A stretch of 64,000 nucleotides of DNA from Mesorhizobium sp. B2-8-5 (GTDB taxonomy: Bacteria > Pseudomonadota > Alphaproteobacteria > Rhizobiales > Rhizobiaceae), in assembly GCF_006440675.2 (NCBI RefSeq), contig NZ_CP083951.1, positions 3,691,501 to 3,755,500 on the forward strand. The letters are read 5' to 3'. Positions 27,311-62,369 of the stretch are shown here, one piece after another; position 1 is the first letter of the stretch, and every line of letters starts with the position of its first letter. The notes under the pieces are model-generated. The model was not told where the DNA came from. It was given only the letters and a program-made list of their open reading frames with translations, and ran no database searches. Made by a program: the position numbers and the translations under genes.

Positions 27311-27317
27311 AAAGACT

Positions 27318-27365
27318 GGTACGCCCAAGGGGAATCGAACCCCTGTTACCGCCGTGAAAGAGCGG
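27318..27365 (-). tRNA. 3' half of tRNA-Glu(UUC): left attachment site (attL)
   Basis: On the minus strand this reads an anticodon stem-loop (CCGCT-CTTTCAC-GGCGG, anticodon TTC), a T arm (AGGGG-TTCGATT-CCCCT), the 3' acceptor strand TGGGCGT, discriminator A and an encoded CCA. No D arm or 5' acceptor strand follows upstream (27366-27400), so it is not a working tRNA. A 3'-tRNA fragment about 170 bp from a tyrosine integrase is the classic direct repeat left by island integration. The intact gene should lie, on the same strand, at the far right end of the island. Confidence 0.85.
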
Positions 27366-31084: not shown

Positions 31085-31128
31085 TCCCAACCGACGTCCG
31101 GCGAATCCGGCAAACTATGGAGATAGTT

Positions 31129-31742: not shown

Positions 31743-31773
31743 GGGCTGAAGGTCAAGGTATTATGATACCGCC

Positions 31774-37845: not shown

Positions 37846-38871
37846 ATGATACCATTTTCGCGGGGGAAATTACGATTTAATGTAGCCAAACGGCTTTCGA
37901 GTTCCTATGCATTAATGCCGACCAATGGCTCATGTGGATGGTATTTTGTGGCGCTGGTGATTACGGCTTGTACGAACCGCAAACGCAAACCGGTCACGGG
38001 CAACCTCCGTGTGGCGTCCCTTCCGCAAGCGAATTTGCCCGACCTGGCGAGCCGATGGTGTGATCGTCTTGCGACGGCCAAGCCTAGATTCCCGGCCGCG
38101 CAACTTTATGGGGGGCGAGCTTTCAAGGAGGCGACTGCGGCAGCTGCAGCCATGGACGCGCAGTTGTACGTGGTCTCGGCTGGTCTGGGCTTCATCAGTG
38201 CCTCGACTGAAGTTCCGTCTTATGCGTGTACGGTCTTGCTCGATGCCGACGACAGTATCGCGGCGCGTGTCAAAGGCAGCTTTGTCCGGTCTGTATGGTG
38301 GAAAGAACTGAGCCGGTTCTCGCCATTTTCAGAAGTTTTGCGGCACATAATTTCGCAATCGGACGGTCTGGTGTGCGCAGCGCTTTCTGACGCTTACCTT
38401 GATATGATTAGCAGGGAGTTGGTGGAGTTGTCGGCGACAGATCGGTGCCGGCTTCGAATTTTTACTCACACACCATTAGAGCGAATTGCACCCGCGTTGC
38501 GAGGCTTCGTGATGCCGTACGACGATCGGCTCGATGGACCTGATAGCACGATGCGAGGCACGCGCAGTGACTTTGCCTCGCGGGCCCTTCGGCACTTCGT
38601 TGAGCATGTACACATTGCTTTCGATAACAATGACGCGGCAACTGACTCCCTGAACGTCACTGCCATGCTACGGGATTGGCGATATCCGACAAGGGTTCAG
38701 CGGGACCGCTGTGACGATGACGCGATACGTCGTCTGATCAATGAACATTGGATTATGGCAAACGGTAGCACTGCGCGCCTTCTGCGGCTGTTCCGAGACG
38801 AGCTAAATATCGCCTGCGAACAGGGCAGATTGGCAGGGCTGGTGCGCGAAGTTGGTGCGGAACGTTCATGA
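37846..38871 (+). CDS. DUF6884-like protein, candidate DpdC (preQ0-to-ADG conversion in DNA)
   Basis: 341 residues from ATG 37846; an in-frame GTG at 37948 would give a 307-residue protein starting just before the conserved block ALVITACTNRKRKP and may be the true start. The pattern C-T-x-R-K, then LYGGRAFKEA and YVVSAGLGFISASTEVPSYA, matches the DUF6884 fold by eye. In the Salmonella Dpd system DpdC is required to turn DNA-bound preQ0 into the amide ADG. First position in the biosynthetic operon and coupling (4-bp overlap) to the DpdB gene make this the best DpdC candidate. The assignment is by context and not by a recognised DpdC alignment. Confidence 0.5.
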   Translation: MIPFSRGKLRFNVAKRLSSSYALMPTNGSCGWYFVALVITACTNRKRKPVTGNLRVASLPQANLPDLASRWCDRLATAKPRFPAAQLYGGRAFKEATAAAAAMDAQLYVVSAGLGFISASTEVPSYACTVLLDADDSIAARVKGSFVRSVWWKELSRFSPFSEVLRHIISQSDGLVCAALSDAYLDMISRELVELSATDRCRLRIFTHTPLERIAPALRGFVMPYDDRLDGPDSTMRGTRSDFASRALRHFVEHVHIAFDNNDAATDSLNVTAMLRDWRYPTRVQRDRCDDDAIRRLINEHWIMANGSTARLLRLFRDELNIACEQGRLAGLVREVGAERS

Positions 38872-39986
38872 CTGCAGTGGACCATCTAAAAATTCGGGCC
38901 GTTCGTGCGGAACAAGGTGGGACCGGGGTTTTCGCGTTCTTTCTTCAAGGCTCTGACATCACTCGCATCGCCGATATCAGTCGTATCCGCCGCGAGGAGC
39001 AAGAACTCAAGGGATTCCAGCGCGGCGTGATTCGTGAACATGTGAAGCAGATTACCGCCTTTCTGGACAGCGGTGCGGTGCTCTTTCCGAATGCCATTAT
39101 TCTCGCAATGGCGCCCGAGGTGGAATTTGCGTCGGCGCGCGGGCGAGCACCCGGAAACATTTGTGAGGTGGGTGACGCTGGCACGCTGTCGATACCGATA
39201 TATCCGGAAGGACGACGAGCGGCGTGGATCGTCGATGGTCAGCAACGCTCACTTGCACTTGCGGAGGCGAGGGATCGGTCGATTGCGGTCCCGGTCGTCG
39301 GTTTCGTGTCGGCACACCTGGCAACGCAACGAGAGCAATTCATTCTGGTCAACAAAGCGAAACCGCTTCCCACTCGTTTGATAAATGAGTTGCTTCCGGA
39401 GGTCAGCGTTCTTCTACCGCGTGACCTCGCAGCGCGTCAGTTGCCAAGTGCGCTTTGCGAGGCGCTCAATACAGATCCGAGTTCGCCATTCTACGGGTTG
39501 ATCCGCCGCGAATCTGACGGCAAGGATAAGGTCGGCATTGTCACCGACAATTCGCTCATCGAAACGATGCGCATGAGTCTCAAAACGCCAGCTGGGGCGC
39601 TCGGCCAATTTAAACATAACGGACGCGGCAACGATACAGAGGCAATGTATGAGGCTCTGTTGCTCTACTGGTGTGCGGTTCGGGATACGTTCCCTGACGC
39701 TTGGGGAAGGCCTCCGGTTGAGAGCCGTCTTATGCACAGCGCAGGTATACGTGCAATGGGCGCCTTGATGGACCCTATTATGCTTCGGACCGATGGTGTG
39801 TCCGATCGCGTAGCGGCGGTTCGTGCTACGCTCGAGCGACTCGCCCCGCATTGCGCGTGGACGAGCGGTTCTTGGAAGGGCCTCGGCATGGACTGGAACG
39901 ATATCCAGTCAACGTCTCAGCACATCAGCAAACTCAGTGATCACCTGATGCACCTCGAGCGTGACCTCGCGCGAGGCGTTGCATGA
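38868..39986 (+). CDS. dpdB: DGQHR-domain protein DpdB, copy 1
   Basis: A 372-residue protein of the DndB/DpdB-like DGQHR family; the signature here is IVDGQQRSLAL near residue 123. ParB-like features follow (REQFILVNKAKPLPTRLINE). In the Dpd system, DpdB works with DpdA to exchange guanine for preQ0 in DNA, and family relatives show ATPase activity. It overlaps the DUF6884-like gene and dpdA by 4 bp each. A second paralogue follows dpdA, sharing the DGQQR block, the FILVN/FVLIN block, SAGIRAMG/GAGIQAMG and a C-terminal W-rich stretch. Confidence 0.8.
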   Translation: MTAVDHLKIRAVRAEQGGTGVFAFFLQGSDITRIADISRIRREEQELKGFQRGVIREHVKQITAFLDSGAVLFPNAIILAMAPEVEFASARGRAPGNICEVGDAGTLSIPIYPEGRRAAWIVDGQQRSLALAEARDRSIAVPVVGFVSAHLATQREQFILVNKAKPLPTRLINELLPEVSVLLPRDLAARQLPSALCEALNTDPSSPFYGLIRRESDGKDKVGIVTDNSLIETMRMSLKTPAGALGQFKHNGRGNDTEAMYEALLLYWCAVRDTFPDAWGRPPVESRLMHSAGIRAMGALMDPIMLRTDGVSDRVAAVRATLERLAPHCAWTSGSWKGLGMDWNDIQSTSQHISKLSDHLMHLERDLARGVA

Positions 39987-41314
39987 AGTTTATTTTTGCT
40001 GACAGCCTGGACTATGTAGACCCTGCGTTCGACTTCATAGCGGATCGCAGTCCGGCAGAGCGACAGCCCTATTGGGACGACGCTTATCCGCACGAGATCT
40101 TGGGTTATGCGCCTTATGATGGAGTGCTGGTTTCGCGCGGTATTGTTGGAGACCATCGTGTGAAGGGCAAATACACGGCGAGCCAGGCGCGGCGCTTTGG
40201 CTTGGTTGGTGTCCGCAAATTTCTCCGCCTCGACAGGCCAGAGTTCACACACCTCGACATATTCGGCGACTGTGGCGCCTTCACTTACGTCAACGAAGAC
40301 CGTCCGCCGTATACGCCGGCAGAAATGGCCGAGTTTTATGACGAGTGCGGCTTCACTCACGGCTGTTCCGTTGACCATGTCATATTCGACTTCTACCCCG
40401 CTGTCGTCGGGATGGAAGGCGGGTCCGTTGATGCTAAGCAACGGTTCGACATAACGCTTGAGAACGCCGATCAATTTCTTCGTGAAGTTGAACAGATAGG
40501 TGCGAGTTTCACGCCACTGGGGGTCGTTCAAGGATGGTCACCAGGCAGTATGGCGGAAGCCGCGCGACGGCTCGTCACGATGGGATATGAGTATCTTGCA
40601 ATCGGCGGCATGGTTCCGCTCAAGTCACCAGAGATCAAGATTTGCCTAGAGGCTATTCGCGCCGCCGTGCCAGCCTCAACCAAGCTTCATATTCTGGGTT
40701 TCGCTAAGGCTGACGATATCGACAGCTTCCATGGTTACGACATCGCCAGCTTTGATACGACATCGCCGCTGATACGAGCGTTCAAGGACGCTAAGAAAAA
40801 CTATTATCTACCGGGCGACGGTCTCGCGTTGCGGTACTTCACGTCGATCCGAGTGCCGCAGGCGATCGAAAATCCTAGGCTTCAGCGAAGCGTGAAAAGG
40901 GGAACGTTCCGCGCCGAGGATTTGGTCCGAATGGAAGTGGCGGCGCTTGGATCGCTCCGAGCCTTCGATCGGGGCGAAGCCGATCTTGATGAGGCGCTAC
41001 ATAGTGTTCTTGTTTACAGCGCCCCGCTGTTTGAAGAAAAGCCTTTCGAAGACTGCCAAAACAGTCCAGCACTTTTGCAACTTGCGAAGCGCTATCGGGA
41101 AACCTTGTCGGAACGGCCATGGCGGCAATGTCCTTGCGCGATATGCGCGGCCACATCGGTCGAGGTAATCATATTCCGCGGCAGCAATCGCAACAAACGC
41201 CGCGGGATTCACAATCTCGCTGTCTACAAGAATCATATTGAACGATTGGATTTGAAGCGTGCTGTCAAACGAACCGATGAAATATCTCGCCGTCTGTGCG
41301 CAGCAGAGTGCTGA
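39983..41314 (+). CDS. dpdA: DNA-guanine transglycosylase DpdA (TGT-like)
   Basis: A 443-residue relative of tRNA-guanine transglycosylase that exchanges guanine for preQ0 in DNA. The TGT active-site parts are visible: Asp96 in FGDCGAF, Asp131 in SVDHVIFD, GGMVPLKS near 208-215, and the nucleophile-position Asp257 in IASFDTTSP. Near the C-terminus a zinc site CPCAIC is followed after 21 residues by HN, where classical TGT has a spacing of about 25. There is no PUA domain or other RNA-binding extension. The ATG overlaps the upstream dpdB stop by 4 bp. Its partner in the system is DpdB. Confidence 0.88.
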   Translation: MKFIFADSLDYVDPAFDFIADRSPAERQPYWDDAYPHEILGYAPYDGVLVSRGIVGDHRVKGKYTASQARRFGLVGVRKFLRLDRPEFTHLDIFGDCGAFTYVNEDRPPYTPAEMAEFYDECGFTHGCSVDHVIFDFYPAVVGMEGGSVDAKQRFDITLENADQFLREVEQIGASFTPLGVVQGWSPGSMAEAARRLVTMGYEYLAIGGMVPLKSPEIKICLEAIRAAVPASTKLHILGFAKADDIDSFHGYDIASFDTTSPLIRAFKDAKKNYYLPGDGLALRYFTSIRVPQAIENPRLQRSVKRGTFRAEDLVRMEVAALGSLRAFDRGEADLDEALHSVLVYSAPLFEEKPFEDCQNSPALLQLAKRYRETLSERPWRQCPCAICAATSVEVIIFRGSNRNKRRGIHNLAVYKNHIERLDLKRAVKRTDEISRRLCAAEC

Positions 41315-42359
41315 GCATCAGGTGCTCACCTTTGCAGCTAGGGCGACTGACGTTTTACGCTTTGCGTCGATCGAGCGCATTGGCCGCAACGAGCAGGGTG
41401 AACTCAGTGGGTTTCAGCGGCCACAGGTTGCAGCCCACATTCGAGAAATTCGCGACTATCTCGAAAAGCCAAATGCTGTGCTCCCCAACCCGATTGTGGT
41501 CGCGTTCACTGATCGCGTCGAAATTGATGATCTTGGCAACGGGGCCGCTCAACTCACAATCGATGTGAGTGTGGGTGCACCAGGGCTGGTCGTAGATGGC
41601 CAGCAACGACTGTCAGCACTTGCCCAAGTTGACCGCGACTTCCAGGTCTTTGTTTCTGCACTCATCTGTCGTGATGATGCAGAACTACGGCGCCAGTTCG
41701 TCCTCATCAACAACACGCGACCGCTACCTAAGTCCCTTATCTACGAATTGCTGCCGACAGTGGACGACTTGCCGCCGCGCCTTAGCCGGCGGTCTATGGC
41801 AGCGAACCTGACTGCGCGCCTCAACTTCGAGAATACCGCACTGAAAGGCTACATCAAACAGCACACATCCCCGGGCGGGATCATCGCCGACACGGTTATT
41901 CAGAAAATAATCATGGAATCCCTCGCAAACGGCGTGATGCGCGAACTGATTAAATCGCATGACGGTGAAACGAGTTGTGTCCGACTTGTCTCGAATTTCT
42001 TCGACGGAGTGAAGCGAGCGTTTCCCGAAGCCTGGCATGGCCATAACCCCAGTTCGTCGCGCCTGTTACATGGCGCTGGCATTCAGGCGATGGGCGATGT
42101 CATGGAAGTGTTGGCGCAGCGCGGGAGCGCTCGCACCGTCAGCGACTTTCAAGATGGCCTCCAATGTCTCAGGGGCAAAACCGCTTGGACCGAAGGTAAA
42201 TGGGAGTTGGGCGGGGAGGTTCGAGGCTGGAACGCTCTCCAAAACGTCAATCGCGATATCTCACTCCTGAAACATTATCTCGTCGGCGTCGTGAAGGCGG
42301 ATCAGCGCCAGAGGCGCAAGGCGGCGCCGACCCCACTCCTCGATAGGGCGGCAGGCTAA
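41277..42359 (+). CDS. dpdB: DGQHR-domain protein DpdB, copy 2
   Basis: About 360 residues from ATG 41277 (a GTG at 41259 is possible); it overlaps the end of dpdA by 38 bp. The signature is VVDGQQRLSAL, followed by RRQFVLINNTRPLPKSLIYE. Similarity to copy 1 runs over the whole length but is clearly incomplete, so the duplication is old. Most described dpd clusters have one dpdB, which makes a heteromeric complex with copy 1, or separate roles in modification and sensing, worth considering. The stop TAA at 42357-42359 is 2 bp from the queE start. Confidence 0.75.
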   Translation: MKYLAVCAQQSAEHQVLTFAARATDVLRFASIERIGRNEQGELSGFQRPQVAAHIREIRDYLEKPNAVLPNPIVVAFTDRVEIDDLGNGAAQLTIDVSVGAPGLVVDGQQRLSALAQVDRDFQVFVSALICRDDAELRRQFVLINNTRPLPKSLIYELLPTVDDLPPRLSRRSMAANLTARLNFENTALKGYIKQHTSPGGIIADTVIQKIIMESLANGVMRELIKSHDGETSCVRLVSNFFDGVKRAFPEAWHGHNPSSSRLLHGAGIQAMGDVMEVLAQRGSARTVSDFQDGLQCLRGKTAWTEGKWELGGEVRGWNALQNVNRDISLLKHYLVGVVKADQRQRRKAAPTPLLDRAAG

Positions 42360-42361
42360 CG

Positions 42362-42997
42362 ATGAGCTACGCAGTTAAGGAAATTTTCTACACTCTCCAA
42401 GGCGAAGGCCGTCAGGCCGGCCGCGCGGCCGTTTTTTGCCGTTTCACCGGATGCAACCTTTGGTCCGGAAGGGAGGCCGACCGCCCGAAAGCCATATGTC
42501 AGTTTTGTGATACCGACTTCGTGGGCACGGATGGCGACGGCGGCGGTCGTTTTGCAACATCCCATGACTTGGCAAGCGCTATCGAGGCGAAATGGTCAAA
42601 CTCATTGTCGCAGCGAAGGTTCGTCGTTTTAACAGGCGGCGAACCACTCCTTCAAGTCGACCCATCTCTCATCGGCGCGTTGCACCATAAGGGATTCGAG
42701 ATCGCGGTCGAAACCAATGGCACGCTCATGCCACCCTCAGGGATCGACTGGGTCTGCGTCAGCCCAAAGGCAGGCACTGAAATCGCGATTAAGAGCGGAA
42801 ATGAACTCAAGTTGGTATTTCCGCAGATGGGTGCAGAGCCCGAACGCTTCGAAGCTCTGGCCTTCGACCATTTCCTCCTCCAGCCAATGGATGGGCCTGA
42901 TCGCATCTCGAATACGCACGACGCGGTCGCCTATTGCCTTGCCAACCCGCGCTGGCAACTCAGCCTTCAAACTCACAAACAACTTGGAATCAGATGA
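42362..42997 (+). CDS. queE: 7-carboxy-7-deazaguanine synthase QueE
   Basis: A 211-residue radical SAM enzyme that converts 6-carboxytetrahydropterin to 7-carboxy-7-deazaguanine in preQ0 synthesis. The N-terminus VKEIFYTLQGEG is the QueE signature. The iron-sulfur cluster cysteines are in FCRFTGCNLW and ICQFCDTDF, with the extended spacing of QueE. LTGGEPLLQ is the SAM-binding block and VSPKAGTEIAIKSGNELKLV the substrate region. Coupled to queD by an ATGA overlap. Confidence 0.95.
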   Translation: MSYAVKEIFYTLQGEGRQAGRAAVFCRFTGCNLWSGREADRPKAICQFCDTDFVGTDGDGGGRFATSHDLASAIEAKWSNSLSQRRFVVLTGGEPLLQVDPSLIGALHHKGFEIAVETNGTLMPPSGIDWVCVSPKAGTEIAIKSGNELKLVFPQMGAEPERFEALAFDHFLLQPMDGPDRISNTHDAVAYCLANPRWQLSLQTHKQLGIR

Positions 42998-43347
42998 AGA
43001 TAACTCAGGCATTCACATTCGAGGCTGCCCACAGGTTGCCACATGTGCCGTTGACACACCGCTGCCACCGCATGCATGGCCATTCCTATAGAATTGAGCT
43101 CCGCCTCGAGGGACCCGTTGACGATCACACCGGTTTTGTCGTCGACTTCTTCGACGTGGAGGCCGCCTTCAATCCATTGCTCCTTCAACTCGACCATTAT
43201 TGTCTCAACGATGTCGAAGGCTTGGAAAACCCCACTGCAGAAAACATTGCAATTTGGATATGGAATCGCATCAAGCCTGCGGTGCCGCAGACGTCTGCTG
43301 TTGTCGTCTACGAGACGCCTGACTGCTGGGCTGAATACGAAGGGTGA
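42994..43347 (+). CDS. queD: 6-carboxytetrahydropterin synthase QueD
   Basis: A 117-residue enzyme of the 6-pyruvoyltetrahydropterin synthase family. The zinc histidines are in FEAAHRLPH and HRMHGHSYRIEL, the catalytic region includes the RCHRMHGH Cys, and the Glu is in VVYETPDC. It makes the QueE substrate from dihydroneopterin triphosphate. The frame extends upstream into queE, but the ATG at 42994 overlaps the queE stop by 4 bp and gives the family N-terminus. Confidence 0.95.
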   Translation: MKITQAFTFEAAHRLPHVPLTHRCHRMHGHSYRIELRLEGPVDDHTGFVVDFFDVEAAFNPLLLQLDHYCLNDVEGLENPTAENIAIWIWNRIKPAVPQTSAVVVYETPDCWAEYEG

Positions 43348-43356
43348 GATGGCATC

Positions 43357-44064
43357 ATGGAAGAGTCAAAGGCAATCGTCCTGTTCTCCGGCGGCCAGGA
43401 TTCAACTACGTGTCTTGCTTGGGCATTAGAACGCTTTGAATATGTCGAAACGATCGGGTTCGACTATGGTCAACGTCATCGCATCGAACTCGATATTCGT
43501 CCTGAGGTATTGACAGCAATTCGCCAAAGTTTTCCGTCTTGGGACAAGAAACTGGGCGAGGATCGTGTGATTGACGTCACTGTTCTTGGGCAAATCAGCG
43601 ACACGGCGCTCACACGCGATGTCGAAATTGCGATGCTTCAAAATGGCCTTCCCAACACGTTTGTCCCGGGGCGCAATCTGCTTTTCATGATTTTTGCGGC
43701 AGCGGTCGCTTACCGCCGCGGGGCACGCCATATAGTAACGGGTGTTTGCGAGACAGACTACTCTGGCTACCCCGATTGTCGCGACGACACCATGAAGGCG
43801 ATGCAACTCGCGCTCAATCTTGGCATGGACCACCGCTTCGTCGTTCACACGCCGCTAATGTGGATCGACAAAGCCGAAACCTGGCGGATGGCAGATGTTC
43901 TTGGGGGCAAAGTTTTGGTCAACCTCATACTTGATAAAACACATACCTGTTATAATGGTAACCGAACAGAGCAGCACGTCTGGGGCTGGGGCTGTGGAAA
44001 CTGTCCTTCTTGTGAGCTTCGCGCCAACGGTTATCGCCAATTCAGCTGTGAGCTTGCGGCCTAG
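43357..44064 (+). CDS. queC: 7-cyano-7-deazaguanine (preQ0) synthase QueC
   Basis: A 235-residue ATP-dependent enzyme that makes preQ0 from 7-carboxy-7-deazaguanine and ammonia. The PP-loop SGGQDSTTC at about residues 11-19 and [11 protein letters not shown] are clear, as is VPGRNLLFM. The zinc cysteines lie near the end in TCYNG and [12 protein letters not shown]. Nine bp after queD, the last gene of the biosynthetic operon. Together with queE and queD it supplies preQ0 for DpdA; folE and queF are not present in the cluster. Confidence 0.95.
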
Positions 44065-44472: not shown

Positions 44473-47400
44473 GTGTTCGTGAGGGTGCTCCGGGGTGAGC
44501 GTGCTGCACTTGGTGTTGGGAAGGCAATCGGTCGGAGCGGCGACATTTGCTCAGTCGAATTTTTCGACGCGCCCTGGAACCCGGCAATCTCAGTCGACGT
44601 AGGTGTCGCCGATCTTGAGGCGGTCACGCTTCCCGAACAGACACGGATCTATCACTACAACGCCGCACTTTCCTCTTGGGAAATCGGGCGACTGCTCGAT
44701 GATCATGGTATCCGCCAATATTGCAGATTCCCCAACGGATCCGACCGATGGCTCTCGGTTGCCCACGTGAACGTTCGATGGAATCACCCAATCGTCGATC
44801 CCACAGCTTTCCTCGCCGCTAAGATCAATGAAACGCCACGCTTTTCCGATGGTCGCAGCGGGTTCGTCCGCTCGGTCATGGCCCAGCGAGGGGTAACTAT
44901 GGGGATGTCCGCGTTAATATCTTCTGCGGTCGAACTCGAGGCCCACCAGATCGAGGTTGTTCGCCGTATTCTCCAGGACCCGGTGCAGCGCTATTTGCTT
45001 GCCGACGAAGTTGGACTCGGCAAGACAATCGAAGCCGGCATATTGATCCGCCAATGCATCCTTGACTGCGGCGATAGCGCCTTCATTTTGATTATCGTTC
45101 CCGACGCACTCGTTTCTCAGTGGCGCCACGAACTTGACGAAAAATTCTTCCTCGGGGCCGATTTCGACCGCCGCATCCGCGTGATTGGACCCAGTGATCA
45201 CGATGCCATTCGTCCACTTCTCGCCCGCGCCACTATGCTGGTGATCGACGAGGCTCATCATCTGACGGGTAGGAGAGCAGAATCTGACTATGATCTATAT
45301 GCGGACATCGCGGCCACGGCACCGGCGATCGAACGTGTCCTGTTGCTCTCCGCCACGCCGGCTCTTCACAATGAGGGTGGTTTCCTCGAAATGCTCCATC
45401 TACTCGACCCCGACACCTACGCGCTCGATGACGAGTCTGGGTTTCGTCGCCGGGTCGCCAGCCGTCAAATGCTCGCGCAGATCGTTGCGGGCTTGGCGCC
45501 GGAAAACGTTCTCTATCTCGACCGTACACTCGACCAACTCGCCGAACATTTTGCCGACGACCATCTGCTGCAGACCCATGTCGCGGCTTTACGCATCATC
45601 GTTGATGGGTTGCCGGACGAATCCGATCCCGAATTGATCAACGCGATCGGCCGGGTGCGCGCGCACATCAGCGAGGTTTATCGCCTCCACCGCAGGATTT
45701 TGCGCCACCGACGGCGCAACATCATCGGTCTTACCCCAGACCGGTCGGGCACGATCCGAGTGGACTACGGCAGTTCTGCCACCGCGCGTGTATACCACGC
45801 GGCTGAATATTGGCGCTTCGAGGAAGCGACAACAGTCAATGGCGAGCCAACGCGGACCGACCGAACACGCATCTTCTTCCAGACGCTTGAGCGGATACAG
45901 GAATATGCATCTTCGGGCGCTGGCGATGTCGGTTTTCTCGCACGCCAGACCCTTCTCGTCGGCGACAGCGCGCGTTTCGCTGGCATAGTGGAGGGGTTAT
46001 CAGGCGAGGAGGCGTTCGACGATCGGGTATCCGCGCTGGTTGCGGCGATCAAGCCCTTGCTCGGTCCCCGGCAGCAGTTTGTCATCTTCTGCACCGACAG
46101 CGAGACGGCCGACCGGCTAGCGAAGACGCTTACCAGTGATCTAGGCCTGCCGGTCGATCGGCATGATCCCGAGCACGAAGACTGGATGGCGTTCAATCGA
46201 GATCCGGCGCGGCCAATCCTGGTGTGCGATCACCGTGCTGAAGAGGGTCTTAATCTTCAGGGCGGACGAAAGATCGTCATCCATTATGATCTGCCGTTCA
46301 ATCCCAACCGGATCGAACAACGCTTGGGGCGTGCCGACCGCTATGGGGCCGGCGACGCGGTGCGCTCGATTGTCCTCGCCTGCCGCGACAATCCCTATGA
46401 GACCGCCTGGGTCAACTACCTCGATGAAGCCTTGAGGATCTTCGATCGTTCGGTCGCGAGCCTCCAATACATCATCGAAGAGATGACTCGGACCTTCGCG
46501 TCATCGCTGTTTCGCGAAGGCCCCGAGGCGATCATCGATCTCATCGCCGAGAGCCGGGGTGAAGACGGCAGGATCGAGCGTGAAATCGCCGCCATTGATC
46601 AGCAGGACGCGCTAGATGCGCTGGGCGCTCCATCCTACGACATGCTGGATGCCCTCAGCGACATCGACGAAGGATGGCGAGAGATTGATTCTGCTGCCTC
46701 GGCCTGGATCGAGACCAACCTAATGTTCGCGCGCGACCCAGGACAGGGCGGTCGCGAGGAGCAGGCGCCTGGCACACTTCCCTTCTGCTATCGCTACGTG
46801 ACGGGGCAACCGCATACGCTGGTTCCGCTTCAGACCTTTCTGAACCGCTTTTCCGCCACGATGGACACCTCAGTCGAGGCTCGTCTCACGCGCACGGTAA
46901 AAACCTACCCAGTGACGTACCGACGTCGCACCGCGCTCGGACGCGAAGGCAGGGCCGCACAAGCCCGTTTGTTGCGCTATGGGGAGCCCTTCATCGACGG
47001 CATGTGGGACCTCTCGCAGATCGATGATCGTGGACGGTCAAGCGCGATGTGGCGGTACTTTCCGGGGCATCAGGGCGAGGGTACCGTCGACCTCTATTTT
47101 CGCTTCGACTTTATCGTCGAGCCCGACCTCGCCGGTGCGCGCTCAGTGCTGGCGGCAGCGGACCGACTGAGCGCCGCCGGCGAGGCAGCGGTCACGCGCC
47201 GCGGTGATATGGCGCTACCACCCTTTTTCCAGACGATCTGGCTCGATCAGGAGATGGAGCGGGTGACGGACGCGACGCTGCTTGTCAAGCTCGATCTACC
47301 CTACCGCCCGGTTGCGGCAGAACAGGCTGGTCGCGATTTCAACCTTAACCCGAAGCGATGGAACCAGCTTGGTCGGCTGCGCCTCCCCCAGATGACCGAC

Positions 47401-54100: not shown

Positions 54101-54279
54101 TGATCGATCGAACCATGACCTTTCTCGGCCACACGACAAGCCTGATCAAGGCGGCGGAGGACAGTGTCGCGCGCGAAGAGGCAAATCGGGGGCAGGCCGA
54201 TCCTGCCACGCTCGTTGCCGAAATCACCGCGATGCTGACCACCATCGCCCAACCCGATGCGCAGGAGGCGACGCCATGA
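51181..54279 (+). CDS. dpdH: Large ATPase DpdH
   Basis: A 1032-residue protein with an N-terminal P-loop ATPase domain: Walker A TGVSGVGKSHIV at about 74-85 and a Walker B-like LVLLVEDFAALAG near 315. Most of the remainder is helical, with a Pro-rich linker (APPPPAPPTTSE, near residue 580) separating two halves. Placed as DpdH by size and order. The upstream frame to 51130 is not needed, since the ATG at 51181 overlaps the dpdG stop. Couples to dpdI by a 4-bp overlap. Confidence 0.78.
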   Translation: MLESYWPDADAVNACIKNEAETADAAVLLAVHQPVAIVRRAEGSEVTTPATELDLLEAFTTENVPGGYVLLPITGVSGVGKSHIVRWLDAQLQRSAKRDRYHIIRIPKSASLRTVVELILAPLKDNPQYTKPWQDLTRAVAEVNLDSAVVTFRAHLENALTARRAELIAEFKQNPDRSDLRQLIGYSGDLPKLFSDAALAEHFKTILARVLSRALSGRSGEVEQADTLSRFVASDLILPKEVDISKAAQRVRDYYKVNIAMVGLERLEPAVDLLNKAIDPAISNVFQLEQSTGGITLQEIILSVREILFQEGKDLVLLVEDFAALAGIQEVLLKVCIQEGEYAGEKVRATMRTALALTDGHLNFRDTILTRARWEWVIGGRLQGDDEIKASVVDMVGAYLNAARWGSADLKRLFRQRGPEQSLTDWLPLWRDEDLNEADSDAVAAFGSASNGAPLFPFNREAIDALAGRILLKGGKLELNPRRVINQILRSTLLLRKSFEAHNFPTPEFQGFRPNATLASWIKQTHQPDSVSGRLSTLLALWGGNPPDVAAIKHISPAIFTAFHLPPPSELANIGFVAPPPPAPPTTSEGKTEGGGAEVATRVVDMATEDPRVTDLRVKLEKWSGGTALEQRDANELRKALMDMVRDAIDWPALRMRSVDLPPNWIEIPQARGNLNTKISVADDAKDADGSVRAGLLAAFRFATVNNRRWSYAQADDDYIASATIVDRLIAQLNPILVRAAHDQAAALSRALITQSRIIGLEPALKPTTSESALKALFAKPEPKATQIFEESWDRLRSNASAAIDDKPGRERLQTELLERTAAFQGTGRTAFGIDIVRLIDALGDDAAARGGGDQLPQDVKDFIRPIAEVRLKNQLSPVVAKLKSFNAQISAYIDDSFDKAAFVADLHDIGRLLAMTGTHINLLITLKEFERRLIEFQASAIKDLVSKVATIVDGDLDQIPKALNSLGALDFGLIDRTMTFLGHTTSLIKAAEDSVAREEANRGQADPATLVAEITAMLTTIAQPDAQEATP

Positions 54280-55004
54280 GCACGACCTTGCCTGCCCGTG
54301 CGTCGGCGTTACGCGCTCGTCTGAGCCGCCTTCATGAGATGAGTTCCAACGTGGCTGAAGCCGCCGACCTGGAAGGCCTACGGGGCCAACTTGCCCGGCA
54401 CGTCGAGAAATTTTCGGGCTCAGCCGAGAAGAGGCGCCTACTCACCAAGGCCGGCATCACCATTGTCGACCCCCCGAGCGGCGCTGTGGTCCGCAAAAAG
54501 GCGACTACCGTGCTCGAGCGCTTTGCAGTGACACCAAAGTCCGCAACACTCAAAAGGGGCCAGGCATGGCCGACAATGCTCGAGGAGATCGACTCGGCAG
54601 CACGCGATCTCCAGGCGGCGGTCACCGCCGCCTGGAAGGCCGAGCGGACCAGCCTGTTCAGCGGCGATACGCCTGCAGCGATCGAGTCCAAGCTGGCCAA
54701 GACGAAGCCGAACCAGGAAGCACTCAAAGTCTATCAGGGCCTCTATAGCCAGTTTAAAGCACTCTTCGACAGCCTGCCTCCCGATCAGGCGACAATCGAG
54801 CGAGCACGAACACTGGGCAGCCAACTCGAAGGCGTTGCGAAGGCGTTCGATTTCCATGTCGCGCCCGAGGTGAAGGCGTTTCTCGAGGCGGTACAGTCCG
54901 TTCTTGGTGCTCCGATCAGCCTGTTGACTGACGAGGTGCTCGCGTGGCTGCGCGAAAATGAGAGTCTCGACGCCTATCGCGTCAAATCATCGGATCGCGC
55001 ATGA
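54276..55004 (+). CDS. dpdI: DpdI-like protein
   Basis: A 242-residue, mostly helical soluble protein with heptad-like stretches at the N-terminus (ALRARLSRLHEMSSNVAEAA) and the middle. No catalytic motif. The position between dpdH and dpdJ and the size identify it as DpdI. In Salmonella dpdI contributes to the restriction-like phenotype, possibly as a structural partner of the large neighbours. It overlaps both neighbouring genes by 4 bp. Confidence 0.72.
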   Translation: MSTTLPARASALRARLSRLHEMSSNVAEAADLEGLRGQLARHVEKFSGSAEKRRLLTKAGITIVDPPSGAVVRKKATTVLERFAVTPKSATLKRGQAWPTMLEEIDSAARDLQAAVTAAWKAERTSLFSGDTPAAIESKLAKTKPNQEALKVYQGLYSQFKALFDSLPPDQATIERARTLGSQLEGVAKAFDFHVAPEVKAFLEAVQSVLGAPISLLTDEVLAWLRENESLDAYRVKSSDRA

Positions 55005-58000
55005 ACGGCGATGAAAAACTCCTCCTCACCAGCCTGGATCGGATAGAACAGCGCGAAGCACGGCTGCTCACCTGGGGCCTCGTTGATGGATTTCTGACGC
55101 TTGGGGAACTCGGCGAACTCATTGACCCCCTGCTTGACGACACCGCTTATGCCGACGGTCTGACCTTCGTCAGTGTCGCCGAAGTCGTGGCAGCGCTTCG
55201 CGATCGCGCGCTGCTGTTCGACATCGGCGACGGCGAAACCAGCCGCTTTCGCTCGCGGATGGCGGAAGCGGTCCGACTATTTTTTCGGCTCAGGCAGTTG
55301 TTTCCGCAGCATCGGGGCCTGATTGGCTGGCAATCCGCGCCGACGCTCGTCGCGGACTTCCGCTTCATCTGGCGCCGACGGCGTTATCCGCGCCGGCAAA
55401 TCTCGGCCGAGCAAGCGCGCATTCAGGTTCAGGCGGCAACGTCCGACGCCTCTGCGCGCGATGCTCTGTCGACCCTAATCAACAGCTACGGCCCCGATTT
55501 CGGCCTAGCCAGCTTCCAGGTCGATGCCGCCGCTCGCATCTTGGCCGGTTTCGAGCAGTCTAACTCGATCGCGACGCTGGTCAGCGCCGGGACCGGAAGC
55601 GGAAAAACCCTCGCGTTCTATCTACCTTCACTCGCTCGGATTGCATCGCACATCCGGCGCGATTCCTCCGCCAGTCGCTGGGTCAAGGTGCTCGCGCTCT
55701 ACCCGCGCAACGAATTGCTCAAAGACCAGTTCGCCGAGGTCTACAGTCAGGCACGGCGGCTCGACGCCAGCCTGTTGCAACAGGGCTGTCGCAAGATCCT
55801 CATCGGCACCTATTTCGGCCCGACGCCGAAGGACGCCGCCGACGCTGAGGCCCGCACCGGTTGGCGTCGCCACGCGGACGGCTTGATCTGCGACTATCTG
55901 CGCTGCCCGACCGATGGCTGTGACGGCGATATGCTGTGGCATAACCTGGATCGCAGGGCCGGGGCCGAACGCCTGGTCTGCCAGACCTGCGCCGCCTCAA
56001 TCGAAAGCGACGAGATTATCCTTACGCGTCAACGGCTCGAGCGCGAGAGCCCAGACATCCTGTTCACTACGACCGAGATGCTGAACCAGCGGATGGGCGA
56101 TGACCGTGTCCGCCACCTGTTCGGCCTAGGTGATCGCTGTGAACGCCCTGTCGAACTCATGCTGCTCGACGAAGTCCATACCTATGCCGGTACATCGGGC
56201 GCGCAGGTCGCGTTCCTGCTACGCCGATGGCGCCGACTACTGCGCCGGTCGGTCAGTTTCGTCGGCCTCTCGGCGACGCTCGCCGACGGGGCGCGCTTCT
56301 TTGCGCGATTGACCGGACTGCACGAACAGGCCTCTCTTGAGATCGCCCCCCGGACCCGCGATATGATCGCAGAGGGCGCGGAGTATCTGCTGGCGCTTCG
56401 CGGCGACCCCGTTTCCCGTACCGCGCTTCTGTCGACCACGATCCAGTCGGCCATGTTGCTCTCCCGAATGCTCGATGCACCTGACCTGCGCCGGAGCCAA
56501 GGCGTCTTTGGCGAACGGCTGTTCCTATTCGCCGACAATCTCGATGTCATCAACCGCATGTTCTTCGCCATGCTTGATGCCGAGGGACGGCAAAGCAGCG
56601 GCCGGATCGACATGAACCGTCACCCCAATGGTGGGCTTGCCTCCTTGCGCACGCCGATGGCGAGCGAACATCGCAAGCTTCATGGCCAAGATTGGCAGGC
56701 CGCTGTCGACATCGGTCACACTCTGCAATCCAACGATCGCAAGACCGTCGGCCGCGTCATGTCTATGGACCCGGGTGTCGGCAGTCATCTCGATATCATC
56801 GTTGCGACCGCGTCGCTCGAGGTCGGCTATAATGACCCGCTCGTCGGCGCCGTCATCCAGCACAAGTCTCCCAACGACGTCGCCCAATTTCTCCAGCGTA
56901 AAGGCCGGGCTGGGCGTTCGGGACGCATGCGCCCTTGGACGGTCGTGATCTTGTCCGACTATGGCCGCGATCGGCTCGCCTATCAGGGTTATGACCTGCT
57001 GTTCGACCCTGAGATCGCTGCCCGATCGCTGCCAATCAGCAATCGCTATGTCGAACGTATCCAGGCGGTTTACGCGACGCTCGATTACCTCAGCCTGGTG
57101 ATCGGCACAAACCCGCGCGGCAGCGTGTGGATCAACATGTACGGACCCGCTGGCACGCCCAACCAGCGCGCACGCCAGACGAAACTGGCCGACCTCATCC
57201 GCGGCATTCTCACCACCGAAGCCGACCTCGAACGCTATGCAGACTATCTCGGACAGGCTCTCAAGCTTGACCGCGACGAGATCGAAGCCCTGCTTTGGGA
57301 CCATCCGCGCCCGCTCCTGGTCGAGGTGCTACCGACCGCGTTGCGCCGGCTAGAATCGCGCTGGTCAGCTTATGGCGAGGCAGGCGCCGACTATCATGTC
57401 GGCAACTCGCCCTTGCCCGAGTTCGCTCCGGCCAACCTGTTCAGTGATCTCAACCTGCCCGAAGTCGAGATCGTGCTCGGCCAGTCGGGTCGAGCAACGC
57501 CCGAGCGTGTCGTCATGCCGATCTCGCAGGCGATGAAGGAATATGCGGCCGGCCGCGTCTCGCGGCGCTACGGCATCAGCCATGCTCTTGAACGGCACTG
57601 GATTTGTCCGCAACTCGACCAGAATGTCGCGCAAAGCGTCGATCTCGCGCCCTACGTGCGGGCCGACCTCATCGGTGAATGGCGGGTTCGGACGACCAAT
57701 GGGGACGTCCTGCCGCTACCGGTCTATCGGCCGCGCGAATTTCTGGTCCAGCAACCCGCCAGTACGGTGGTCGACACCTCGAACGCGCGGTTGCGCTGGC
57801 GTTCGCAGATCGTAGCCCGCGAAGTCGGTCTGGTCCTGGCGTCGCCGATAGGCAGCCCATGGGCTCCCTTCATTGCCGATGCCCGCTTCTACACCCATCA
57901 GAACCTCAGTGCGGCAGAAGCGCGGCGTATGGCGATCGGGAGCGACGCTAGCATCCGCTATCGCGACGGGACGTCACAAAACAAGAAATTCAGCTACGAG

Positions 58001-59554
58001 ATGGACGGAGGCGCCGCTGCGCTTGGCTTCAGCTTCGGGGTCGACGCATTCTGTCTGCGCCTCCGTTTCCCACAGGACCTTTGGTCGAGCCTCGGCACCG
58101 ACTCGGATCCGCCCTACCGAGCGATCCGCACCGCGCGTTTCCACAACCAAGCAATCGACGGATCCTATCTCGACGCCGTCGACAATCGCTTCGCCCGGGA
58201 GTGGCTCGCCCACCTCCTTCTCGCGGCGATCAGCAACGAGGCGATCGCCAAGGCGATCGGGCTGGAAGAAGCCGCTGACAATCTGGCGCACGATCGGGCG
58301 GAACTGAGTCTAGGCCAGACGCTCGACATCCTGTTCCAGTCGCCAATCGTCGATGATCCCACCGGCCAGGGCAACCTTCAGGATAAGCTCCGCCAGGATC
58401 TGGCCCTGCACATCGCCAACCCGCAGATCCGAACCAGGTTGTTTAGCCTTGCGGAGATCCTGTGGCAACCGATCGTCGCCAATTGGGAGCCTTGGCTGCG
58501 CGAGCGCTTCGCGGCGACAACCGCGGCAGCCGCCCTCAACGCTATATTGAGCCTTTGTCCGGAGATCGACGCAGACGGCCTCGTCGTCGATATCGACCCC
58601 GGTCCGCGTGAGTCCGACGACGTTCTCACCGATCAACCGGCCGCCGAAATCTGGATCAGCGAGACCGCCCCTGGCGGCAACGGTCAGATCGAGGAGGCGC
58701 TGCGCCAATACGCCGAGGACCCGCGCCGCTTTTATAGTCTTATGACGGCGGCGTTGCGCGACAATGATTTCGCACTCAGCGATTATCAATTGCAGCGCTT
58801 TCTCAGTTTGGTCGTCGAGGGAGACCCCGACGGCGATCTGGCGGCGGCGACGAACGGCTTCCGTGATGCTTATGGGGTGTCCGAGAGCCACCGGGCTTTT
58901 TCGGTCGTGCGCGAAACGTTAGCGGCGGAGGGATTCGTGACCTTCCACGCTTTCATGGTCGCGCTCGCTAACCGTGTCCTTCGCCCCGGCTCGACTCGCG
59001 AAAGCGACACCTTCTTTCTCGGTGCTATCCGCCACTGGTCGGCCGAGGAAGAGCGGCTTGGAGTTGAACTGGATGCGCGTGTCGTCGCATACAGGCTGTC
59101 ACGACGCGACGACATCGATACTGCGCTCAGCTTCGCCGGCATCGACACGCCCACGATCAATCCCGCCCAATGGCGCTTCGGTGTAATCTATGGCTTGCTG
59201 TGGCCGCGCGGGCCGCAGATCCGCCAGGCCGGATTGCACCTCTATTCCCAATTTGCTGACCTGCCAGCACCCGAACCCTTGCTGTTGATGTCGTTCCTCG
59301 CACATGAAAATGCGTTTATCGATCTTGAGGATGACAAATGGCCCGGCGAATGCCTGACACGTCTAGCCGATGCCGGATCCGCAACGCTCATCTGTCCGAT
59401 GAACCAGGCCGGTCGCCTCGCGGACGCCTTCAATTTCCTCGCCACTAACCCGGTGCAGACGGGTTACCTGTCGGTCTTTGCCCGCGTGCAGGCGGTCCGG
59501 CGCTCGGGCAGCGCCTATCATGTCGATGTCGATATCGCGGAGGCCGTGCAATGA
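55001..59554 (+). CDS. dpdJ: Very large helicase DpdJ
   Basis: A 1517-residue superfamily 2 helicase. Walker A is AGTGSGKTLAFYLP at about 196-203. Inserted in the first RecA domain is a probable zinc cluster, CPTDGCDGD and CQTCAAS (about 307-330). The DEVH box is LLDEVHTYAG, motif III VGLSATLADG, and motif VI QFLQRKGRAGRSGRM. The C-terminal 900 residues are of unknown fold. It resembles DrmA-type helicases in overall design. In Salmonella it is possibly required for restriction. Overlaps dpdI and dpdK by 4 bp each. Confidence 0.85.
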   Translation: MNGDEKLLLTSLDRIEQREARLLTWGLVDGFLTLGELGELIDPLLDDTAYADGLTFVSVAEVVAALRDRALLFDIGDGETSRFRSRMAEAVRLFFRLRQLFPQHRGLIGWQSAPTLVADFRFIWRRRRYPRRQISAEQARIQVQAATSDASARDALSTLINSYGPDFGLASFQVDAAARILAGFEQSNSIATLVSAGTGSGKTLAFYLPSLARIASHIRRDSSASRWVKVLALYPRNELLKDQFAEVYSQARRLDASLLQQGCRKILIGTYFGPTPKDAADAEARTGWRRHADGLICDYLRCPTDGCDGDMLWHNLDRRAGAERLVCQTCAASIESDEIILTRQRLERESPDILFTTTEMLNQRMGDDRVRHLFGLGDRCERPVELMLLDEVHTYAGTSGAQVAFLLRRWRRLLRRSVSFVGLSATLADGARFFARLTGLHEQASLEIAPRTRDMIAEGAEYLLALRGDPVSRTALLSTTIQSAMLLSRMLDAPDLRRSQGVFGERLFLFADNLDVINRMFFAMLDAEGRQSSGRIDMNRHPNGGLASLRTPMASEHRKLHGQDWQAAVDIGHTLQSNDRKTVGRVMSMDPGVGSHLDIIVATASLEVGYNDPLVGAVIQHKSPNDVAQFLQRKGRAGRSGRMRPWTVVILSDYGRDRLAYQGYDLLFDPEIAARSLPISNRYVERIQAVYATLDYLSLVIGTNPRGSVWINMYGPAGTPNQRARQTKLADLIRGILTTEADLERYADYLGQALKLDRDEIEALLWDHPRPLLVEVLPTALRRLESRWSAYGEAGADYHVGNSPLPEFAPANLFSDLNLPEVEIVLGQSGRATPERVVMPISQAMKEYAAGRVSRRYGISHALERHWICPQLDQNVAQSVDLAPYVRADLIGEWRVRTTNGDVLPLPVYRPREFLVQQPASTVVDTSNARLRWRSQIVAREVGLVLASPIGSPWAPFIADARFYTHQNLSAAEARRMAIGSDASIRYRDGTSQNKKFSYEMDGGAAALGFSFGVDAFCLRLRFPQDLWSSLGTDSDPPYRAIRTARFHNQAIDGSYLDAVDNRFAREWLAHLLLAAISNEAIAKAIGLEEAADNLAHDRAELSLGQTLDILFQSPIVDDPTGQGNLQDKLRQDLALHIANPQIRTRLFSLAEILWQPIVANWEPWLRERFAATTAAAALNAILSLCPEIDADGLVVDIDPGPRESDDVLTDQPAAEIWISETAPGGNGQIEEALRQYAEDPRRFYSLMTAALRDNDFALSDYQLQRFLSLVVEGDPDGDLAAATNGFRDAYGVSESHRAFSVVRETLAAEGFVTFHAFMVALANRVLRPGSTRESDTFFLGAIRHWSAEEERLGVELDARVVAYRLSRRDDIDTALSFAGIDTPTINPAQWRFGVIYGLLWPRGPQIRQAGLHLYSQFADLPAPEPLLLMSFLAHENAFIDLEDDKWPGECLTRLADAGSATLICPMNQAGRLADAFNFLATNPVQTGYLSVFARVQAVRRSGSAYHVDVDIAEAVQ

Positions 59555-60090
59555 CCTTCGAGACACGTCGAATTTTCAAGAGCGCGGTCACAAGCCAGAA
59601 TCTAATCCGTGAACTGCTGCAACTGATGCTCCTCGGCGAACTTCTCGCTCCGGGCGGCGAACGGGCCTGGCTGGTCAGCCCATGGATCAGCAATATCTTG
59701 CTGTTCGACAATCGCGCGGGTGGCTTCGGGTCGGTCAATCCTGAATGGGGCAGCCGCGAAGTTCGTCTCGTGGAAGTTACGATCAACCTGATGGCGCGCG
59801 GCACGTCGCTCGGCATCGCAACCAGTTTCGACACGCATAATGATGCCTTCATCGCGACCGTCAGCGAGGCAGCCGAAGAGGCAGGACTTTCCGATCGGCT
59901 GCTGATCGTCCAGCGCCAGCACCTTCATACCAAGGGGGTGCTTCTCAAGCGCGGTCTGCTCACAGGGTCAATGAACCTGACCTATAACGGCCTCGAGTTG
60001 AACGACGAGATGGTCGTCTATGACACCAATGCAAAGACGCTCGCCGAAGCGCGCCTAAATTTCGAATCCTATATCGAGGTCGACAAGTGA
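59551..60090 (+). CDS. dpdK: PLD-type nuclease DpdK
   Basis: A 179-residue protein with one phospholipase D-like half-site, HLHTKGVLLKRG followed by LLTGSMNLTYNG (H-x-K and GS-x-N), so it is expected to act as a dimer. The N-terminus has AWLVSPWISNILLFDN, typical for the first strand of the fold. It is the likely nuclease of the restriction half; dpdK is needed for the Salmonella phenotype. Start and stop overlap dpdJ and dpdD by 4 bp. Confidence 0.82.
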   Translation: MTFETRRIFKSAVTSQNLIRELLQLMLLGELLAPGGERAWLVSPWISNILLFDNRAGGFGSVNPEWGSREVRLVEVTINLMARGTSLGIATSFDTHNDAFIATVSEAAEEAGLSDRLLIVQRQHLHTKGVLLKRGLLTGSMNLTYNGLELNDEMVVYDTNAKTLAEARLNFESYIEVDK

Positions 60091-62369
60091 TCGCCGATCT
60101 CGCACCGTCCGAGGTCGCTTGGCTGCAGGTCTTCTTCAGCGCGCCCAATGGTCTCAACTGGCACAGTATCGAGCAGCGCACGGCGCCGCAGGGGCTCATC
60201 GATCATATACTTCCCTGGCTACACCTAGTCGGCAGCGGTCCCCCGCAAACGCCGATCATGCTGCCCTTTGTGCGCTCCGGCGAGATTGTCGGCTGGTACG
60301 CGACCACGCGCGGACCGGCTGGCGCTTTCGAACTCAAGAAGGAACTGATGGGCTGGCTCGGGCCAACCTATCTCGACCAGATCGAGGCCATGTCCGGGGA
60401 CAGTCCCGATCCAATGGCAATGGCGATGCGGCAACGCTACGACGGGATCGTTTACCGCTTTTCTGGTACGGTCGGCGCGACGACCGCGCGGATGGCCGAT
60501 CGTTTGACCGCCTTTGCCAATCTTGCCCAGCGCCGCCCGCTGACCAACCGCATGCCCGTGCGACCGGTTGGGGCCATCCGCTCGGACTTCGAGCGTGCGC
60601 TACTAGTCCAGGACGCCGAGCGGGCTGAGGCCTTGATTGCCGAGTTGCGCGAGACGGGGCGCCTGAACGAGGAGAACCTCAAGTATCTCGATGTGCGGCT
60701 GAAGGCCGGTCTCGGTCTTTGGCCGCAGATCGCCCGCGATCACTGGCTGATCAAGACGCTCTCCGATCTGCCGATGCCGGTGCAGATTCTCGCCGACATC
60801 ATCGAGGCACTCTACAGGACGTATCTCGACGATCTGGAGAAGATCGGCGATGCCCCGGCGCTACTCGACGCATTCAAGCAGCATCTGGGAACACCCTATC
60901 CGCGTCTTTTCGCGACCCGACGCGGTATCCGCACGCCGCGGGTGATCAAGGCCTTCCTGCTGTTCGAGCGCGTGCTCGACCGGCCAAACGATGCGCTCCT
61001 CACTGATCTGGCCTCCCTGTTACCGACCGATGATCCTGGTCACATGTTGTTCGCAGGGCTTGCCGCGCCTGTTTCTGCACCGGCGCCATCGCCGGTCCTG
61101 GAAGGACCAGTTTCGGCCTCGGACGAGGACGAGGCTGAACAGGCATTTGACGACGGCCAATATGACCGTGCCTTCGCGCTTTATCGCGACCTGCCGCTGA
61201 GCAAGCGTTCGGTGCAGCGCCTGCTCGCCTGCGTGCTTTTCATCGATGCTAACGACACGTGTCAAAGTCTGCTTGCCAGGATCGACGAGGCCGATCCGGC
61301 ATTCGTCGCGACCCTGGCCGACCCCGTTCGTAAAAGGATCGACGACCTGCGGGGCGCGCCACAGCGGGATGCGCGTGACGAAGCGCCGATAACCGCAGTC
61401 GATAGCTGGTTTGCCTGGGCTGAAGGCCTCGCCGCTGGCCGCGACATTAGCGCTCTTGCCCAGTCACTCGACAACGCTCTCACATGGGACGTCGCCCAGA
61501 TTACCAGGGATGACGCTGCATCGAGCCGATTTGCGGGACTGCTGGGCGGGCTCTCCGGCGAGGCGGCTCAGGCTGCACGTCGCGCGGTGCCCGCGATCTT
61601 CAACGCTGTCTTTGTAGATGGCACGCCTGTGCATGAAAGCGGGAGGCCGATCGCGATCCTACTCTTCGACCTGCTAGCCCTTGACGATACCTTGACCCCG
61701 ACTGATCTCGAACTTCTCCAATTGCTCCTCGGACAACTGCTGACGATCGGCCTGTCTCCGTCCGATTATCGCAATCTCGTCAGCGGCCTCGAAGACGTCC
61801 AACTCCGGGTAGGCTCCTACGCGCATCTCACGTGGAGCCTTGATATTTGCGAGGCGCTTGCCATCGCACCTGCGCCGGGGGAAGCGGCGCGCGCAGCCCG
61901 GCGGCAATTCTTTCTCCTGTTGGTGGGGCAGGCACAACTCTTCGCGCATCGCCTTGAGCGCCAGGATGTTCTGCCTTTCATATTGCTATGCCGAGACTAT
62001 GGGCTCGATTCGGAGGTGCTTGGTGCGATCACGCTTCCCGAGCAGGCGGAAGCGGATATCGAAACGCACGACCTGTCCGGCAAGATGATTGCGATCTACA
62101 CACTGGCGGAGGCAGCTGCGCGCCGCGCCAGGGCAGCGCTTCTTGAGATGTTTCCCGGCGTTCGCGTCGAAACCAATGCAGACACGGTGGCGACGGCGCG
62201 CCTTACCAGTCTCGCCAAGGCCGCAGACATTTTTGTCTTCGCATGGAAGAGCAGCAGCCATCAGGCCTATTATTGTGTGAAGGATGCGATGGGAACGCGC
62301 GAACCGGTAATGGTGGCGGGCAAGGGGACGGCTAGTCTACTTCGTGCCGTTCTCGACAGTCTGAGCTGA
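60087..62369 (+). CDS. dpdD: DpdD-like protein
   Basis: A 760-residue protein starting at a GTG that overlaps the dpdK stop. No catalytic motif is recognised. The middle is helical with an acidic segment (SDEDEAEQAFDDGQYDRAFA) that looks like a TPR-like repeat; the C-terminus is alpha/beta. Identified as DpdD by size and position at the end of the operon. In Salmonella dpdD takes part in the restriction-like effect. Confidence 0.75.
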   Translation: MIADLAPSEVAWLQVFFSAPNGLNWHSIEQRTAPQGLIDHILPWLHLVGSGPPQTPIMLPFVRSGEIVGWYATTRGPAGAFELKKELMGWLGPTYLDQIEAMSGDSPDPMAMAMRQRYDGIVYRFSGTVGATTARMADRLTAFANLAQRRPLTNRMPVRPVGAIRSDFERALLVQDAERAEALIAELRETGRLNEENLKYLDVRLKAGLGLWPQIARDHWLIKTLSDLPMPVQILADIIEALYRTYLDDLEKIGDAPALLDAFKQHLGTPYPRLFATRRGIRTPRVIKAFLLFERVLDRPNDALLTDLASLLPTDDPGHMLFAGLAAPVSAPAPSPVLEGPVSASDEDEAEQAFDDGQYDRAFALYRDLPLSKRSVQRLLACVLFIDANDTCQSLLARIDEADPAFVATLADPVRKRIDDLRGAPQRDARDEAPITAVDSWFAWAEGLAAGRDISALAQSLDNALTWDVAQITRDDAASSRFAGLLGGLSGEAAQAARRAVPAIFNAVFVDGTPVHESGRPIAILLFDLLALDDTLTPTDLELLQLLLGQLLTIGLSPSDYRNLVSGLEDVQLRVGSYAHLTWSLDICEALAIAPAPGEAARAARRQFFLLLVGQAQLFAHRLERQDVLPFILLCRDYGLDSEVLGAITLPEQAEADIETHDLSGKMIAIYTLAEAAARRARAALLEMFPGVRVETNADTVATARLTSLAKAADIFVFAWKSSSHQAYYCVKDAMGTREPVMVAGKGTASLLRAVLDSLS

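Follow-up and report, generated by a model that had tools for sequence, protein, structure and literature searches.

A Predicted Dpd Restriction–Modification System with Two DpdB Paralogues on a Probable Integrative Island of Mesorhizobium

Introduction

Why should a Dpd system of 7-deazaguanine DNA modification and restriction carry two DpdB proteins? The question is raised by a stretch of 64,000 nucleotides of Mesorhizobium sp. B2-8-5 (contig NZ_CP083951.1, positions 3,691,501 to 3,755,500 of the forward strand), called here the window, whose numbering is used throughout. In this window, a dpdB gene stands on either side of dpdA. The locus is likely to represent a complete Dpd restriction–modification system on an integrative island, with the two DpdBs acting as the pair modelled below. 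Taken apart from that partnership, this explanation of the locus is very probable; the partnership itself, which we infer, is put forward tentatively.

The locus belongs to a known kind of system, and the double DpdB is the part that deserves a second look. Complete and to all appearance intact, this copy in a cultivable soil genus provides a second test bed, and its DpdB1/DpdB2 pair makes the role of the DpdB ATPase a clean genetic question.

Gene Content of the Dpd Cluster

An earlier note on this DNA had named a complete Dpd cluster at 37846–62369, and all of its genes were found there as open frames, in the right order and where the note had placed them. The window proteins were compared with the NCBIfam, Pfam and PADLOC profiles, applying curated cut-offs, a check that the note had itself named as able to refute it. 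Ten of the eleven dpd letters (dpdA–H, J and K) gave strong matches and dpdI a weak one, while the three que genes fell into the expected families (Table 1). Every dpd gene with an NCBIfam match exceeds the curated cut-off except dpdI, whose position and size are as expected. The candidate DpdC of the note is indeed DpdC according to PADLOC (E 1.5e-106), the NCBIfam search with this product giving no match. DpdB is also present as claimed, but in two genes where the note had seen one.

All 15 cluster genes are open frames that overlap or almost abut in two groups, separated by a 408-base gap (44065–44472) ahead of dpdE. DpdA aligns over residues 1–420 with a solved DNA-guanine transglycosylase, 7ui4, which is the Salmonella Montevideo DpdA according to PMC12137116. 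All of the motifs looked for in the cluster proteins are intact, including GDCGAF, SVDH, SFDTTSPL and CxCxxC...H in DpdA. The sequences point to likely corrections of three starts in the note, namely queD (42994), dpdF (about 47712) and dpdH (about 51181). The open frame of dpdB2 extends over 41259–42359, with a GTG at 41259 and its first ATG at 41277. A sequence search of the PDB with DpdK gave no match, and no known RNA element was matched by Rfam at gathering cut-offs within 26000–64000.

A silent or partly defective system in this host is improbable, given the 15 open genes and the intact motifs, although the divergence of DpdI speaks for this alternative.

Table 1. Features of the Dpd cluster and of the surrounding island, in window numbering.
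Feature	Position	Strand	Evidence
Left attachment repeat, copy of tRNA-Glu(ttc) 3´ part	27307..27365		59 bases, 98% identical to partner 64485–64543
Tyrosine recombinase, phage integrase family	27536..28894	+	PF00589 28.5 bits, cut-off 27.1
dpdC	37846..38871	+	PADLOC DpdC 354 bits; Pfam DUF6884 under cut-off
dpdB1, upstream DpdB paralogue	38868..39986	+	NF041060 447 bits, cut-off 300; trees
dpdA, DNA-guanine transglycosylase	39983..41314	+	NF041059 550 bits, cut-off 200; PDB 7ui4 E 4e-90; motifs
dpdB2, downstream DpdB paralogue	41277..42359	+	NF041060 378 bits, cut-off 300; trees
queE, Cx14CxxC type	42362..42997	+	TIGR04508 350 bits
queD, PTPS-family protein	42994..43347	+	PF01242 128 bits
queC	43357..44064	+	TIGR00364 210 bits
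dpdE, SNF2/RapA-like helicase	44473..47712	+	NF041062 970 bits
dpdF, RecQ-like helicase	47712..50282	+	NF041063 915 bits; match begins at residue 54 of longer frame
dpdG	50279..51181	+	NF041064 306 bits
dpdH, P-loop ATPase	51181..54279	+	NF041065 839 bits
dpdI, divergent	54276..55004	+	NF041066 106 bits, below cut-off 150
dpdJ, YprA-type helicase	55001..59554	+	NF041067 1834 bits
dpdK, phospholipase D (PLD)-type protein	59551..60090	+	NF041068 196 bits; one HxK...GSxN motif
dpdD	60087..62369	+	NF041061 546 bits
tRNA-Glu(ttc) gene	64495–64569 (just right of window)		

Two DpdB Paralogues

The arrangement around dpdA was compared in 47 places, comprising the window and 46 loci (25 from genome contigs, 15 of 25 plasmid records, two of three phage records and four DpdA places in three congeners). 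A full DpdB lies on either side of dpdA in 36 of the 47, a share that is not to be read as a rate because the loci were gathered by their likeness to the DpdA and DpdB of the window. Two places have the downstream copy only (L009 and the Enterobacter plasmid locus L046) and two the upstream copy only (L023 and L051, the latter with a split downstream copy), while one phage DpdB lies in a stretch without dpdA. In the remaining six, no DpdB was found near dpdA at phmmer E <= 1e-8, two of these having, no more than a few kb off, a gene annotated as DndB or DGQHR. No DpdB was found within 6 kb of dpdA on plasmids of Acetobacter pasteurianus (L059, 6001–7359) and Methylorubrum extorquens AM1 (L063, 6001–7284). 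In an even sample of the phylum, DpdB exceeded the cut-off in three of 398 genomes, with two copies in two of them (one being the genome of the window itself) and a single copy in the third.

Phylogenetic analysis separates the two positions. In the more careful of two trees (66 rows), the 32 upstream DpdBs without exception form one clade and the 31 downstream DpdBs, again without exception, another (support 100/99 and 100/100). The same clades were recovered in a quick tree of 80 rows, with values of 99 and 100 in the Shimodaira–Hasegawa-like approximate likelihood ratio test. DpdB pieces shorter than 300 residues were left out of both trees, and seven near-duplicate loci out of the smaller one. 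Three of the 66 rows lie outside both clades: the near-identical single copies of L046 and of genome G328, and the DpdB of phage Mx4; the grouping of these three is weak (92/65). The single enterobacterial DpdB belongs to neither clade in either tree. On trees without a root among the DpdB lineages, this difference may reflect either loss of a copy by the enterobacterial system or gain of a copy by the double type.

DpdB1 and DpdB2 share about 31% identity. At least 95% conservation is seen in both sets at 52 columns, including VDGQQR, and ten columns are fixed for different residues; the DGQQR motif is kept in both DpdBs of the window. The idea that either DpdB is an outright dead copy was rejected, as both retain the shared conserved columns. 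From the clades, the locus counts and the shared columns, the two paralogues are old and stably kept, and neither seems dead. Both proteins match the DndB family (Pfam PF14072), and structure models of both have a ParB-like look, which is weak; a PDB sequence search with the DpdB2 profile gave no match.

Matches to DpdB2 were also obtained in three phage records, namely Myxococcus phage Mx4, its derivative and 'Bacteriophage sp.' MT835580 (L043). The last of these was rejected as a phage: over 19 kb it matches a Sphingomonas parapaucimobilis contig (L014) at 99.9% identity, so it is probably bacterial DNA.

Proposed Mechanism and the Role of the DpdB Pair

The modification chemistry and the restriction are drawn here by analogy from the literature on relatives. 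QueD, QueE and QueC, fed by the single FolE of the host, would make 7-cyano-7-deazaguanine (preQ0), which DpdA, helped by DpdB, would swap for guanine in DNA. DpdC would then hydrolyse the inserted nitrile to the amide, giving 7-amido-7-deazaguanosine (ADG). Unmarked DNA would be attacked jointly by the products of dpdD–K, among which DpdE, DpdF and DpdJ would act as motors and DpdK would probably be the nuclease. DpdB1 and DpdB2 might together form a two-part, nucleotide-driven, ParB-like DNA clamp placing DpdA on its site, a task left to one protein in the enterobacterial system.

Two other roles of the pair have been weighed. DpdB1 and DpdB2 could act separately as homodimers, each steering DpdA to a different sequence and giving two modification specificities. 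Each set does have its own invariant columns, and the shared motif set is intact in both, so that neither looks like a dead subunit; however, independent specificities might be lost singly more often than is seen, with one copy lost or broken in three loci (L009, L023 and L051) against 36 of 47 with both, and this alternative appears doubtful. A division of labour, in which one DpdB serves modification and the other restriction or regulation, for example by sensing unmodified sites for DpdE–K, is rather unlikely. It would fit the match of both proteins to the DndB family, but the rhizobial plasmid loci L044 (20 kb on each side) and L057 (6 kb on each side) keep both DpdBs although these stretches showed no restriction dpd gene; the plasmid of L057 nonetheless has a DpdE about 26 kb away. 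Of the three readings, the two-part clamp is the one preferred here.

A Mosaic Cassette and the Apparent Swapping of Modules

The order dpdC-dpdB1-dpdA-dpdB2-queE-queD-queC followed by dpdE and dpdF is shared with sphingomonad-type loci (L002, L004, L008, L011 and L013), although the hosts differ. DpdB1, DpdA and DpdB2 of the window are 71–85% identical to those of most sphingomonad loci; in the five loci just named, DpdA is 80–84%, DpdE 52–56% and QueD only 34–39% identical. Rhizobial plasmid loci of Sinorhizobium (L044), Shinella (L056), Agrobacterium (L057) and Bradyrhizobium (L062) likewise have the B1-A-B2-queE-D-C order; there it is QueD that is close (70–76%), with DpdA only 47–64% identical. 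The plasmids of Shinella and A. vitis also carry a DpdE that is 57% identical to that of the window over its first 842 residues, and the genes found downstream in this group include a VUT transporter gene (L044 and L057) and a HAD hydrolase gene (L044, L057 and L062). In the congener G085 (L088), QueE, QueD and QueC are 80%, 86% and 75% identical to the window proteins, but DpdA only 48%. Because the DpdB/DpdA and Que proteins have different closest loci, the cassette of the window is a mosaic that seems joined near dpdB2/queE.

The boundaries of the cassette were also compared between loci. The DNA of L002 matches that of L003 at 91.9% identity over 7949–14067 and not outside that stretch. 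All 190 pairs of 20 loci were then aligned, two of the 22 being left out as their contigs end too soon; the summed aligned lengths may count overlapping pieces twice, one row exceeding the cassette length. In 113 pairs, at least 4 kb of the cassette is held in common along with less than 150 bases of the next 4 kb, while 32 pairs have at least 1 kb in common in that next stretch and 16 lie in between; in the other 29, less than 4 kb of the cassette itself is aligned. The dpdC–queC cassette thus looks as if it has been exchanged as a block between loci, which points to a single modification module being able to work with several restriction modules. Such exchanges bear both on the recombination of such systems and on self-recognition.

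A different set of genes follows queC in L043, whose DNA is 99.9% identical to that of L014: at 14863–23447, in place of dpdE–K, it encodes a PD-(D/E)XK-match protein and a 2,134-residue fusion of a superfamily 1 (SF1)-type helicase with a DpdJ-like helicase. Open frames of similar size with a similar DpdJ match were seen in L003, L005 and L018.

It is possible, with less than even confidence, that at least two deep Dpd types exist: a single-DpdB type in enterobacteria and a double-DpdB type (C-B1-A-B2-queE-D-C), mainly in Alphaproteobacteria, with a heteromeric ParB-like clamp. As part of the same reading, the 6-kb cassette would move as a unit between unrelated restriction modules, from which it would follow that the restriction machines read the mark in the DNA and not a protein partner.

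Comparison with Known Systems

The earlier note had fitted the cluster to the system of Salmonella Montevideo. The fit holds for the gene set, but not for the two dpdB genes or for the restriction genes, which here run in the same direction as dpdAB. As a single-DpdB yardstick, the locus L046 of the Enterobacter plasmid NZ_CP086409 was used, a near copy of its dpdAB occurring in 159 of 5,426 E. coli genomes. L046 and the window have in common dpdA-dpdB, dpdE-F-G-H, a protein at the place of dpdI, and dpdJ-K-D, with the same order from E to D. They differ in that L046 has one DpdB, downstream of dpdA, with which neither of the two window DpdBs groups; its restriction operon is opposite to dpdAB; and queE-D-C, present in the window, are not listed in the stretch of L046 shown. 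DpdA and DpdE are only 39% and 28% identical between the two. The insertion site also differs, the Salmonella cluster integrating near tRNA-Leu according to PMC6159554, and that of the window in tRNA-Glu.

Dpd-like YprA systems, among them BRIGADE, resemble the window in combining a 7-deazaguanine cluster, a YprA-type helicase and a nuclease; PMC12458937 reports BRIGADE in halophilic archaea only. Membership of BRIGADE, which calls for an ARMADA-like YprA helicase, was rejected: the one YprA-type helicase of the window is a canonical DpdJ over its whole length, and the cluster also has DpdK.

A survey preprint made with GATOR-GC (PMC11888242) counts 2,335 unique dpd windows across eight phyla, the commonest state being an intact operon (>50%), and gives dpdB as the gene with most additional copies (801). 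The Dpd kind is therefore known and second dpdB copies have already been counted, and the duplication may well be familiar to specialists. Among the matches listed in the open-access literature, neither a split of DpdB into two orthologous clades nor a swapping of cassettes was found described, and the reason for keeping two paralogues seems unaddressed in the literature searched.

The Host Genome and the Supply of preQ0

The locus had been called rhizobial, which the host comparisons bear out. A Mesorhizobium sp. DpdB2 is 96% identical to that of the window, 10 kb of the left flank are 84% identical to a Mesorhizobium huakuii plasmid, and RpoB is only 70–73% identical to that of the nine sphingomonad and acetobacterial genomes compared. 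The rpoB gene was chosen because 16S rRNA was not found in the genome itself, and in only one of eight relatives. The genome is a single contig of 6.46 Mb, and DpdA is present in four of 146 genomes of the genus, this one included.

One folE gene lies in the genome, outside the cluster, together with one tRNA Tgt. The QueC of the island is the only one over the cut-off in the genome, so that the island queC may also supply tRNA queuosine. That the island que genes mainly feed queuosine synthesis in a host lacking its own QueC is nonetheless quite improbable. This alternative draws on the tRNA Tgt, on the single over-cut-off QueC and on the genus sample, in which 22 of 61 genomes (own included) have no QueC over the cut-off and 39 have one; but most related loci have the que genes behind dpdB2 and running the same way, which makes supply to DNA their usual setting, and the two uses can coexist.

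The Island and Its Surroundings

The claim that the cluster lies in an island stood up, on the evidence of the 59-bp repeat and of an unoccupied site in the congener G121. There, the left and right flanks (90–99% identical) join on a single copy of tRNA-Glu, with a 58-base overlap. This junction and the tRNA-Glu repeat set the limits of the island at 27307–64484 (about 37.2 kb), wider than the cluster noted, with the right end just past the window. On sequence grounds, the tyrosine recombinase next to the left repeat is likely to be the island integrase. The G+C content is 0.55–0.63 in the Dpd region and about 0.64–0.68 across much of the left flank.

Between the integrase and the Dpd genes (30254–33156) lie genes for a helix-turn-helix protein, a terminase small subunit-like protein and a resolvase, from which the island may be phage-satellite-like in nature. 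Divergent from dpdC, a two-gene unit on the minus strand (33672–37585) encodes a 779-residue PLD-domain protein, with weak ZacB/DrmC-like matches, and a 525-residue protein without a Pfam match. This pair was rejected as a part of Dpd because the relatives of the 525-residue protein are themselves numerous (550 at E <= 1e-10, the best 120 being listed) and neither protein was matched in 25 related genome loci, which extend no further than about 8.7 kb upstream of dpdC, several far less, and for which the best of overlapping matches is kept. The pair and the Dpd cluster may travel together: a relative of DpdB2 (P0001, 96%) and one of the 525-residue protein (P0122, 87%) both come from records named Mesorhizobium sp. 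whose longest contig measures 278,706 bases. The tRNA-Glu attachment site at the right-hand limit of the island is adjoined by an AAA_21-type ATPase on the minus strand (63388–64000, the frame running on to 64365).
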